A stretch of DNA of 42,884 nt from Caldilineales bacterium. Lineage in GTDB: Bacteria > Chloroflexota > Anaerolineae > J102. Location: NCBI GenBank assembly GCA_013360575.1, contig JABWBG010000018.1, forward strand, positions 1 through 42,884, written 5' to 3'. This document shows, one piece after another, positions 16,359-20,625 of the stretch. Position numbers and translations under genes: made by a program. A model generated the notes under the pieces. That model worked only from the letters and a program-made list of their open reading frames with translations, was not told the origin of the DNA and did not search any database. Numbering within the stretch: the stretch's first letter is position 1; each line of letters begins with the position of its first letter.

Positions 16359-17243
16359 ATGAAACCACCCTCGTTTAAATACCACGCGCCGCGGTCGGTG
16401 GAGGAGGCGGCCGGTCTGTTGGCCGAACACGGCTACGATGCCAAGCTCCTGGCCGGCGGACAGAGCCTGATCCCGACTATGAACTTTCGGCTGGCCCAAC
16501 CGGCTGTGCTGATCGACCTCAACCGCATCCCCGAATTGGCCTACATCCACCCGGCCGGCGATGGCGGCGTGCGCATCGGCGCCATGAGCCGGCATGTGCA
16601 GGTCGAGAAAAGCGACCTGATCGCCCAGGCCGCCCCCCTGATCCATGAGACCATGCCCCTGATCGCCCATCCGCAGATCCGCAACCGCGGCACCTTCGGC
16701 GGCTCCATCGCCCACGCCGACCCGGCCAGCGAGCTGCCGGCCGCCTTGCTGACGCTGGGCGGCCGCGTTCAGGCGCGAGGCGCAAAGGGAGCACGCTGGA
16801 TCGAGGCGGACGAGTTCTTCCTCGGCCTGTTCACCACGGCCCTGCAGCCGGATGAATTGCTGGCCGAAGTGCGCTTCCCGGCCCTGCCCGCCCGCGCCGG
16901 CTTTGCCGCCCGCGAGGTGGCCCGGCGGCATGGCGATTACGCCCTGGTTGGGGTCATGGCGCTGGTGGGGCTGGATGCCGGGGGGGCGTGCAACCTTGCC
17001 CGTCTCACCTATTTCAGCGTCGGCGACGGCCCCACGCCCGCGCCCCAGGCCGCGGCCGCGCTGATCGGACAGCGACCGACATCTGAGGCGCTCGCGGCAG
17101 CAGCAGAACTGGCCGCCAGCGCCGACATCCCCGAACCGGTGGCCGATATCCACGCCACCGCCGCATTCCGCCGCCATTTGATCAAAGCATTGGGCAAACA
17201 AGCACTGCAGCAAGCATTCATCCGAGCCGGAGGCGCAGCATGA
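16359..17243 (+). CDS. Molybdenum hydroxylase FAD-binding subunit (CoxM/XdhB-like)
   Basis: FKYHAPRSVEEAAGLLAEHGYDAKLLAGGQSLIPTMNFRLAQP...IRNRGTFGGSIAHADPASELPA. Confidence 0.92.
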   Translation: MKPPSFKYHAPRSVEEAAGLLAEHGYDAKLLAGGQSLIPTMNFRLAQPAVLIDLNRIPELAYIHPAGDGGVRIGAMSRHVQVEKSDLIAQAAPLIHETMPLIAHPQIRNRGTFGGSIAHADPASELPAALLTLGGRVQARGAKGARWIEADEFFLGLFTTALQPDELLAEVRFPALPARAGFAAREVARRHGDYALVGVMALVGLDAGGACNLARLTYFSVGDGPTPAPQAAAALIGQRPTSEALAAAAELAASADIPEPVADIHATAAFRRHLIKALGKQALQQAFIRAGGAA

Positions 17244-17713
17244 GCGAGACAATGATGATTTCGTTGACTGTCAACGGGCAGCGCTACCAGCGCCAGGTCG
17301 AGCCGCGGCTGCTGCTCAGCGATTTCCTGCGCCACGAGCTGGATCTGACCGGCACGCACGTGGGCTGCGAGCATGGCGTGTGCGGGGCCTGCACCATCCT
17401 GGTGGATGGCGTGGCCGTGCGCTCCTGTCTGATGTTCGCGGTGCAGGCGGATGGCTGCGAGCTGCTGACGGTGGAGGGGCTGGCCCCTGGCCCCGAACAA
17501 CTGCACCCGTTGCAGGCTGCTTTCCGCCAGGCCCACGCTCTGCAATGCGGTTTCTGCACGCCCGGCTTCCTGATGACGCTCGCGCCCTGGCTGGCACAGC
17601 ATCCGAACCCGACCGATGAGGAAATCCGCCTGGCCCTCTCTGGCAACCTCTGCCGCTGCACAGGGTATCAGCACATCGTCGAGGCGGTGAAGATGGCGGC
17701 AGAGATATGCTAG
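17240..17713 (+). CDS. Molybdenum hydroxylase 2Fe-2S subunit (CoxS/XdhC-like)
   Basis: GCEHGVCGACTILVDG and QCGFCTPGFLMT...NLCRCTGYQHI. Confidence 0.94.
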   Translation: MSETMMISLTVNGQRYQRQVEPRLLLSDFLRHELDLTGTHVGCEHGVCGACTILVDGVAVRSCLMFAVQADGCELLTVEGLAPGPEQLHPLQAAFRQAHALQCGFCTPGFLMTLAPWLAQHPNPTDEEIRLALSGNLCRCTGYQHIVEAVKMAAEIC

Positions 17714-17731
17714 AACCAAGGAGAGGAGCAG

Positions 17732-18001
17732 GTGCCCAAACTTTGGCAGTACGGGCCTTACATCTTCTTCTGCTATGTGTATGATCTACTGAATGAACCA
17801 GCGCATGTTCATGTACGCGCAGGTAATGCAGAAGCAAAATTTTGGCTGAATCCGGTTAGAATCGCGTGGAATCATGGACACAAGTCAGATGATATAACTC
17901 GGATCGAGCGTTTGATCCATGAGAATCAAAATCGTAACAATTCATCTTATTTTGTCATTGCGAGGGGCGATAGCCCCGAAGCAATCCCCAACGCTGATTG
18001 A
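17732..18001 (+). CDS. DUF4160-like protein, C-terminus apparently replaced by repeat sequence
   Basis: GTG start; MPKLWQYGPYIFFCYVYDLLNEPAHVHVRAGNAEAKFWLNPVRIAWNHGHKSDDITRIERLIHENQ matches the DUF4160 pattern (PxHVHV..G.AkFWL). After ~17950 the frame runs into a gtcattgcgag...gaagcaatc repeat. Confidence 0.65.
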   Translation: MPKLWQYGPYIFFCYVYDLLNEPAHVHVRAGNAEAKFWLNPVRIAWNHGHKSDDITRIERLIHENQNRNNSSYFVIARGDSPEAIPNAD

Positions 18002-18045
18002 CATCCACAGAATTGACGAGCCACCTTGGAGATTGCTTCGCTGCC
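17954..18045. repeat. gtcattgcgag/gaagcaatc-type dispersed inverted repeat
   Basis: gtcattgcgaggggcgatagccccgaagcaatcccc ... gattgcttcg; gaagcaatc (17978-17986) is the reverse complement of gattgcttc (18031-18039). Confidence 0.65.
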
Positions 18046-18082
18046 GACGATTATTCAAGAAGCTACGGCGTTTATTACACAC

Positions 18083-18108
18083 AAAAAAAGCCGCTGAACG
18101 CGGCGGCT
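18083..18108 (-). terminator. Intrinsic terminator of the candidate sRNA
   Basis: Minus strand AGCCGC-CGCGTTCA-GCGGCT-TTTTTT. Confidence 0.7.
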
Positions 18109-18202
18109 CTGGCTTGGTGGCAATAAAAAAGCCAGGGATATAGGATTGTGCAGACCGTAGTCCAACAATCACACGGCATGGAGCCGAATTTTGTCCGCTG
18201 GC
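18083..18202 (-). ncRNA. Candidate structured small RNA (~118 nt), antisense to the flanking operon
   Basis: Consensus-like promoter, GCCAG...CUGGC closing stem, hairpins CGGC-UCCAU-GCCG and GAUUGUuGGAC-UACG-GUCUgcACAAUC, ending in a hairpin plus U-tract. Confidence 0.5.
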
Positions 18203-18208
18203 AAATGT

Positions 18209-18236
18209 AGTATAGCAAAACCAGAGGGAATGTCAA
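18209..18236 (-). promoter_or_regulatory. Sigma70-like promoter driving the candidate sRNA
   Basis: Minus strand TTGACA-(16 bp)-TATACT with extended -10 TGC. Confidence 0.62.
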
Positions 18237-18279
18237 CCGTTTTTTTAATGCCTTCCCTCCAATCCCCGGAGACCTACCC

Positions 18280-20625
18280 ATGACCACCCGCACCTTCGGC
18301 CAACGCATTCGCCGCAATGAAGACCCCGTGCTGCTCACAGGCCAGGCGCTGTTTACCGACGACGTCAATCTGCCCGGCATGCTGCATGTGGCCTTCAAAC
18401 GCAGCGATTACGCCCACGCCCGCATCCTCAGCATCGATACCTCGCTGGCCGCAGCGATCGAGGGCGTGGTCGCCATCTACACCGCCGCGGACCTGGGCGA
18501 TTACTGGCGGCCCGGCCCCCTGCTGGTCTCGCCCCCGCCGATCAAAGATGTCGTGTTCAACACCCGCACACAGGTGCCCCTGGCCCGCGACAAAGTGCGG
18601 CACGTGGGCGAACCGATCGCCATGGTCGTCGCCACCAGCCGCTACATCGCCGAGGACGCGGCCGAGCTGATCTTCGTCGATGTCGAACCCCTGCCTGTGG
18701 TGGTGGACATGGAACAGGCCCTCGACCCGGCAGCGCCCCTGATCCACGAAGACCTGACCCAAAACCTGGTGGCGCACGTGATCCAACAGAAAGGGGACTA
18801 CGCCGCGGCCAAAGCGCAGGCCGATGTGGTGGTCAGCCGCCGTCTGTACTACGATCATGGCGTGGCCGCGGCCATGGAGAACCGCGGGGTGGTGGCCAAC
18901 TGGGATCGCAAGAGCCAGCACCTCACCGTCTGGGACACCACACAGGCGCCGGTGGTCATCCGCAACGGCCTTTCTGGCCTGCTGGGCCTCTCCGCCGCCC
19001 AGGTGCGGGTGATTGCGCCCTTCATCGGCGGCGGCTTCGGGCCTAAGATCATGATGTTCTACCCCGAAGAAGTGCTGGTGCCCTGGGTCTCCATGCAGCT
19101 CAACCGCCCGGTGAAGTGGATCGAGGACCGCCGCGAAAATTTCATGAGCACCACGCACGAGCGGGATCAGGTGCACTGGGCCGAGATCGCCCTCAGCAAA
19201 GAGGGGCGCATCCTGGGCTTCAAAGATTTCTTCTTGCACGATAACGGCGCGTATGGGCCTTACGGGTTGACTGTGCCGATTAATTCTCAATGCACGCTGT
19301 TGGGCTGTTACGACGTTCCCGCTTATTACAGCGAATTCAAGGCGGTTTTCACCAACAAGATGTACGTCACGCCCTACCGTGGGGCGGGGCGGCAACATGG
19401 CGTGTTCGTGATGGAGCGCATGCTCGACTTCGCCGCCCAAGAACTGGGGCTGAGCGTGCATGAAATCCGCCGCAAGAACTTCATCCCCCCCGCCGCCTTC
19501 CCCTACAACAACGCCATCATCTATCAGGATTTCGCGCCCCTGGTCTATGACAGCGGCAATTACGAGCCGGCCCTGGATAAAGCCCTGGATCTGATCGATT
19601 ACGATCGTTTTGTGCGCGAAGAGCAACCGAAATTGCGGGCCGAGGGCCGGCTGGTGGGCATCGGCCTGGTTTCCTACGTCGAAGGCACCGGCATCGGGCC
19701 GTACGAGGGCGCGCGCGTGCAGATCGAGCCGAACGGGCTGGTCAACGTCGCCACCGGCATCGGCACGCAGGGTCAGGGGCATTTCACCTCCTTTGCTCAG
19801 CTTGTGGCCGATCAGGTGGGGGTGGATGTGCGCCACGTGCGCATCAGCACCGGCGACACCGACAAATTTCATTGGGGCACCGGCACTTTTGCCAGCCGCG
19901 GCGCGGTGGTGGCGGGCAACGCCGTCCACGCCGCGGCCGAACGAGTGCGCGAGAAGATCCTGAAGCTGGCCAGCGAGGAATTGGAAGCCGCGCCCGAAGA
20001 CCTGGAACTGACCGATGGCGTCGTGCGCGTCAAAGGCGTGCCCGGCTCCGCCATCAAACTGGGCGACCTGGCGGTGCGGGCCAATCCCCTGCGCGGCGCG
20101 GTCAAGCCGGGCATGGAGCCAGGGCTGGAGGCCACCGCCTATTTCGGCCCGGAACGGGGAGTCACGGCCAGCGGCATCCACGCCCTCATCGTCGAGGTCG
20201 ATCCAGAAACGATGCAGGTGCAGATCAAGCGCTATGTCACCGTCCACGACTGCGGGCGGGTGATCAATCCCCTGATCCTCGATGGCCAGATCCACGGCGG
20301 CATCGCCCAGGGCATCGGCAATGCTTTTTACGAAAAGGTGGTCTACGACGCCAATGGCCAGCTCTTGAACGGCTCTTTCATGGATTATCTGATCCCCACC
20401 AGCATGGAAGTGCCCCGGATCGAGGTCGATCATGTGGAAACGCCCTCTCCCTCCAACCCGTTGGGGATCAAGGGCGCGGGTGAGGCGGGCGCCATCCCCA
20501 CCGGCCCCGCCTTTGCCCAGGCGGTGGAAAACGCTCTGGCCCCCTTCGGCGTCGAGATCCTGGAAATCCCCCTCAGCCCCAACCGGCTGTACGAATTGGT
20601 GCAGGCGCGGCGGCAAGAGGCGTGA
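18280..20625 (+). CDS. Xanthine dehydrogenase/aldehyde oxidase-family molybdopterin-binding subunit (not form I CO dehydrogenase)
   Basis: FGQRIRRNEDPVLLTGQALFTDD...APFIGGGFGPK...PYRGAGRQHGVFVMERMLD...GIKGAGEAGAIPTGPAFAQAVENAL. Confidence 0.93.
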   Translation: MTTRTFGQRIRRNEDPVLLTGQALFTDDVNLPGMLHVAFKRSDYAHARILSIDTSLAAAIEGVVAIYTAADLGDYWRPGPLLVSPPPIKDVVFNTRTQVPLARDKVRHVGEPIAMVVATSRYIAEDAAELIFVDVEPLPVVVDMEQALDPAAPLIHEDLTQNLVAHVIQQKGDYAAAKAQADVVVSRRLYYDHGVAAAMENRGVVANWDRKSQHLTVWDTTQAPVVIRNGLSGLLGLSAAQVRVIAPFIGGGFGPKIMMFYPEEVLVPWVSMQLNRPVKWIEDRRENFMSTTHERDQVHWAEIALSKEGRILGFKDFFLHDNGAYGPYGLTVPINSQCTLLGCYDVPAYYSEFKAVFTNKMYVTPYRGAGRQHGVFVMERMLDFAAQELGLSVHEIRRKNFIPPAAFPYNNAIIYQDFAPLVYDSGNYEPALDKALDLIDYDRFVREEQPKLRAEGRLVGIGLVSYVEGTGIGPYEGARVQIEPNGLVNVATGIGTQGQGHFTSFAQLVADQVGVDVRHVRISTGDTDKFHWGTGTFASRGAVVAGNAVHAAAERVREKILKLASEELEAAPEDLELTDGVVRVKGVPGSAIKLGDLAVRANPLRGAVKPGMEPGLEATAYFGPERGVTASGIHALIVEVDPETMQVQIKRYVTVHDCGRVINPLILDGQIHGGIAQGIGNAFYEKVVYDANGQLLNGSFMDYLIPTSMEVPRIEVDHVETPSPSNPLGIKGAGEAGAIPTGPAFAQAVENALAPFGVEILEIPLSPNRLYELVQARRQEA

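Follow-up and report, generated by a model that had tools for sequence, protein, structure and literature searches.

An unregistered family of small structured RNAs lies, in many bacterial phyla, on the opposite strand at the end of a nuclease-like gene (DUF3800), whereas most of the predicted viral contigs that carry it have the RNA alone, half of the copies next to tRNA genes. We identified the family from a single locus in the window, the whole 42,884-nt stretch analysed here (Caldilineales bacterium, GCA_013360575.1, contig JABWBG010000018.1). Minus-strand positions 18202-18131 encode a three-way-junction RNA with a near-consensus sigma-70 promoter and terminators, and the DUF3800 gene beside it is reduced to about 28 codons, leaving an orphan half of a two-gene unit. 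The reading we favor, at about even confidence and without expression, binding or toxicity data, is that DUF3800 and the RNA form a protein-RNA toxin or defense pair in which the RNA restrains the nuclease and phages carry decoys.

A structured RNA between coxS and coxL

An earlier note, made from the sequence alone, proposed a stand-alone minus-strand small RNA with a strong promoter, a three-way-junction-like fold and an intrinsic terminator between coxS- and coxL-like genes. Our analysis confirms the observation and supports this interpretation. The locus contains the following features.

18231-18236 (minus strand): -35 element TTGACA
18209-18214 (minus strand): -10 element TATACT, preceded by TG (extended -10); predicted start of transcription at about 18202, inferred from spacing
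18130-18205 (minus strand): structured RNA core, three-way junction P1-P2-P3, matching our two covariance models at 90 and 86 bits
18194-18202 (minus strand): helix P1, 5' strand GCCAG.GGA, pairing with UCCCUGGC at 18138-18131
18174-18186 (minus strand): P2 hairpin CGGC-UCCAU-GCCG, nearly invariant, a likely recognition element
18144-18170 (minus strand): P3 hairpin GAUUGUuGGAC-UACG-GUCUgcACAAUC, variable in sequence with conserved pairing
18125-18135 (minus strand): CUGGC of P1 followed by six U, the first terminator-like end
18083-18108 (minus strand): second terminator hairpin AGCCGC-CGCGUUCA-GCGGCU-UUUUUU, embedded antisense in the DUF3800 relic
18046-18129 (plus strand): relic of the 3' end of a DUF3800 gene, about 28 codons aligned, ending in YGVYYTQKKPLNAAALAWWQ and the stop, with one in-frame TAA in the aligned stretch
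17940-18044 (plus strand): interspersed, palindrome-rich repeat of about 105 bp, abutting the DUF3800 relic
17732-18001 (plus strand): DUF4160 gene (Pfam PF13711), part of the material between coxS and coxL, its 3' end overlapping the repeat

The promoter elements are separated by a 16-nt spacer and match the consensus at 11 of 12 positions; 3 promoter-like sites were found in 17000-19500 against 0.8 expected. The minus strand then carries GCCAGCGGACAAAAUUCGGCUCCAUGCCGUGUG... to CUGGC-UUUUUU at 18125. The strand folds as the earlier note described, with an MFE of -28.2 kcal/mol (z = -3.3), and none of 200 shuffles did as well. Three details required correction. Helix P1 has 8 pairs (GCCAG.GGA/UCCCUGGC), the UNCG-class loop of P3 is not conserved (UGCG, UGUG, CGCG and others occur), and the second terminator is also the antisense of the codons ...TQKKPLNAA of the lost DUF3800 gene. 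The earlier note also missed that the RNA is normally half of a convergent pair with DUF3800, of which this locus keeps only a relic.

Rfam 15 has no match at gathering scores in the window, and seven sub-threshold matches around the locus (E 0.59-7.5) are unrelated families. A DNA search found the RNA once in its own genome and in seven other genomes of 60 relatives (E 4e-30 to 1e-8). The alignment shows that the promoter, GCCAG/CUGGC, the UCGGCUCCAUGCCGUGUG block and CCUAUAUCC are conserved, while P3 changes by compensation. A covariance model found matches in 49 of 397 genomes of the class. On 47 distinct sequences, 93.6% of cells are paired, all 8 P1 pairs and all 11 P3 pairs have changes on both sides, and the covariation score is 0.439 against 0.153 for shuffles and at most 0.077 for slid structures. 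Over 80 distinct sequences, 21 of 23 pairs are doubly changed and the score is 0.465 against 0.172 shuffled and at most 0.073 slid; P2 shows rare covarying forms (CGGG/CCCG and UGGC/GCCA). The G-U pairs that occur in P1 and P3 would be A-C mismatches on the other strand, so the minus strand is the right one.

Upstream of the RNA, 61 of 77 distinct loci score at least 9 of 12 for TTGACA/TATAAT, against about 7% of shuffles and none of 72 control stretches, and the -10 element usually ends 3 nt before the model start. A T-tract lies within 120 nt of the RNA end in 65 of 77 loci against 8-11 in control stretches. In 39 loci it falls within the first 10 nt after P1, and in most others it lies 30-49 nt further on as a hairpin inside the DUF3800 coding sequence. 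There the codons are biased as the antisense terminator predicts, with CCG for P in 48 of 67 against 193 of 743 elsewhere (p 1e-13) and AAA for the first K in 39 of 45 against 570 of 990 (p 7e-5), although K and Q codons pooled over the YTQKKPL motif showed no bias.

It is very unlikely that the locus is merely a DNA-level element or a set of chance palindromes, such as a mobile-element end or a bidirectional terminator. The RNA does border a repeat with at least 41 copies in this genome (90-100% identical), and it sits in an insertion between coxS and coxL. However, the repeat ends at 18044, the RNA is single-copy, P1 and P3 covary, and the promoter is conserved on one strand at fixed spacing; a MITE or IS origin was rejected. 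The coxS/coxL context is incidental, as the gap between these genes is 569 nt here and 20, 23 and 62 nt in three relatives, and homologues sit in unrelated places, such as what looks like a type III restriction locus in another genome, where the DUF3800-RNA pair lies between genes resembling the modification and restriction subunits. A different insertion of about 700 nt between coxS and coxL, beginning with a short ORF that looks like an antitoxin, was seen in one further genome.

Near-obligate linkage to DUF3800

In the homologous loci with intact neighbors, the 3' end of the RNA meets the 3' end of a gene on the other strand that Pfam calls DUF3800 (PF12686). We then fetched loci by the DUF3800 protein alone, which gave 285 relatives, of which the best 80 were kept, from Chloroflexota, Poribacteria, Planctomycetota, Cyanobacteria (Tolypothrix, Nostoc), Latescibacterota, Verrucomicrobia and others. 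The RNA model hits 79 of 80, always antisense at the stop codon and nearly all at 50-92 bits; the contig of the one exception ends five bases after the match. In 37 of 79 loci the stop codon is exactly 14 nt inside the RNA match (the TAG is the complement of CUA in CCUAUAU), and most others lie within about 10 nt of the RNA end. In the class, 16 further DUF3800 loci, most of them divergent, gave 15 with the RNA, the exception being an 82-aa fragment. Protein and RNA distances correlate (Mantel r 0.57, 0 of 2000 permutations).

The convergent overlap at the stop codon in nearly all loci, and the terminator hairpin lying inside the coding sequence in many, could indicate antisense regulation, in which the RNA pairs with the 3' end of the DUF3800 mRNA, as may occur in type I pairs such as TxpA/RatA or BsrG/SR4. 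We consider this unlikely. The conserved core (P2, the junction and most of P1 and P3) lies outside the overlap and is preserved as structure, not as complementarity, and phage copies have no DUF3800 gene to overlap in 23 of 25 contigs. DUF3800 is a soluble protein of about 280 aa with a predicted RNase H-like fold and not, like the toxin of type I systems, a short hydrophobic peptide.

Predicted RNase HII-like fold of DUF3800

AlphaFold2 on 20 sequences gives pLDDT 88, and the best PDB matches by Foldseek are RNase HII (1eke, 1uax; E about 1e-5), with Argonaute PIWI domains far weaker. D15, E16, G18 and D19 of the DExGD motif are invariant, which resembles what is probably the DExG motif of RNase HII. 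No PDB relative was found by sequence. The PADLOC model DUF3800_VII, which likely represents the effector of retron type VII, matches the protein weakly (E 2e-12).

The main rival explanation is that the RNA is an activating cofactor, with DUF3800 as an RNase H-fold nuclease that works only as a ribonucleoprotein with this RNA, as a scaffold or guide, for defense or RNA processing. Such a role predicts the same near-obligate linkage and would suit the correlated distances and the RNase H fold with weaker Argonaute/PIWI matches; in addition, a DUF3800 protein occurs with Cas12a2 in CRISPR loci and has been linked to putative ncRNAs (PMC10910872). However, there is no variable single-stranded stretch that could be a guide, since variation lies in helices that keep pairing, and the persistence of the RNA without DUF3800 in cells and phages is not predicted by a pure cofactor role. 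We regard this alternative as rather unlikely, though the strongest of the rivals.

Orphan RNAs and asymmetric loss

In the window, the DUF3800 relic (profile match to positions 257-284 of 288, E 8e-4) lies directly beside the 41-copy repeat, while the RNA keeps a strong promoter, its fold and both terminator signals. The RNA might still act on other DUF3800 proteins, or it may be a recent leftover. The same genome has a second, intact DUF3800 gene (contig C339, 9001-9786) with a divergent RNA (33.5 bits) at its stop codon, belonging to a subfamily found across the class.

RNA without a complete DUF3800 is common. Of 50 loci of the class found through the RNA, 21 have an intact DUF3800, 5 a nearly full-length but interrupted one, 14 relics and 10 none, although some of the last are near contig ends. 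RNAs next to relics pair as well as those next to intact genes (95.5% against 94.4%), and 10 of 14 keep a strong promoter. In contrast, DUF3800 without the RNA was seen only as one fragment. This asymmetry is expected if the RNA makes the protein tolerable, but it could partly reflect ascertainment, as searches starting from the RNA favor surviving RNAs and the protein profile was built from RNA-linked loci.

The unit is not consistently found in defense islands. Type I specificity subunits are somewhat enriched (5 of 120 immediate neighbors, against 0-8 hits per relative genome), but most other neighbors are unrelated.

RNA copies in predicted viral contigs

Exact core patterns found 26 copies of the RNA in 25 IMG/VR contigs, mostly divergent (19-63 bits), and not all of these contigs are equally sure to be viral. 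P1, which lies outside the search patterns, covaries in 8 of 8 pairs in this set. Only two contigs have a DUF3800 gene. Thirteen of 26 copies lie within 300 nt of a tRNA gene on the same strand, against 0 of 79 cellular loci (p 7e-10). In two contigs (L191 and L194) the RNA directly follows a tRNA 3' end, and L194, a 137-kb predicted viral contig, holds two copies (1694-2054) between tRNA-Met, tRNA-Phe, tRNA-Ser and tRNA-Tyr genes. Terminase or integrase genes occur on several contigs, and in two (L197 and L210) tRNA and RNA are close to a terminase large subunit gene. In three others (L186, L190 and L193) a divergent RNA lies downstream of tRNA-Tyr; in L186 and L193 an RtcB RNA ligase gene lies about 120 nt beyond the RNA, and L186 and L190 also carry DNA methylase genes. 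Close DUF3800 relatives were absent from INPHARED phages and nearly so from PLSDB plasmids.

The proximity to tRNA genes could also suggest that the RNA acts on a host target of its own, tRNA-like or translation-related, and that DUF3800 processes or degrades it. This is improbable, because in cellular loci the RNA is tied to DUF3800 and never next to tRNA genes (0 of 79), it has no tRNA-like fold, and it has no Rfam match.

Relation to known RNA families

DUF3800-associated RNAs are already known, and Rfam 15 includes DUF3800-I (RF02969), DUF3800-VIII (RF03075) and DUF3800-IX (RF02968). The RNA described here is a new family, insofar as published DUF3800 motifs are represented in Rfam, and is probably a sister of DUF3800-IX. 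Both have a three-way junction with the same order of helices, GAA in the first junction and CUA before the closing strand. In four of nine DUF3800-IX loci inspected, a DUF3800-like ORF lies on the opposite strand with its stop at the RNA 3' end, and DUF3800-IX also occurs without DUF3800. However, neither model finds the other. DUF3800-IX has no match in the window at E<=10 or in homologous loci at E<=2-5, although the same model finds three other places in this genome (contigs C360, C10 and C9), of which the one at C9 has a DUF3800-like ORF antisense at its end. P1 of DUF3800-IX is longer and its P2 is a different hairpin (GUCgCCGUaUGGcGGC), whereas the RNA here has the invariant CGGC[UYCAU]GCCG and CCUAUAU. 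Other DUF3800 motifs gave no match for any RNA of this family at E up to 5-10 in cellular loci. DUF3800-I was not found in 150 genomes of the class, but this is uninformative, as the control gave no signal anywhere. One viral copy (L196, 1290-1449) lies 9 nt from a sub-threshold DUF3800-VIII match on the same strand, possibly two DUF3800-type RNAs in tandem.

Implications for DUF3800 function

We infer that the RNA, of about 70-120 nt, binds its cognate DUF3800 protein through the conserved P2 hairpin and junction and keeps it harmless, like the RNA of a type III toxin-antitoxin pair, and that the nuclease is let loose when the RNA is lost or outcompeted, probably in anti-phage defense. Phages that carry the RNA alone would then use it as a decoy antitoxin. 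In ToxIN, escape phages gained a pseudo-ToxI RNA (PMC5086642), but this precedent is an analogy only. ToxIN likewise pairs a protein nuclease with a structured RNA, yet the RNA here is a single three-way junction instead of repeats, it is convergent with its own promoter and not co-transcribed upstream, and the predicted fold of the protein is RNase HII-like, apparently instead of the ToxN fold. More tentatively, a widespread class of RNA-restrained RNase HII-like toxins may act in anti-phage defense, with phages of several kinds carrying the bare RNA in tRNA clusters as a decoy antitoxin, its 5' end in some arrays being made by tRNA processing instead of a promoter.

DUF3800 is a domain of unknown function and its RNA motifs have been orphans. 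What is most new here is the near-obligate pairing across phyla, the predicted RNase HII-like fold of this subfamily, the terminator inside the gene and the phage orphan copies in tRNA clusters. Together with an arrangement shared with DUF3800-IX, this near one-to-one protein-RNA pair makes the function directly testable, with a loss asymmetry that points to restraint by the RNA and phage copies that suggest an arms race.
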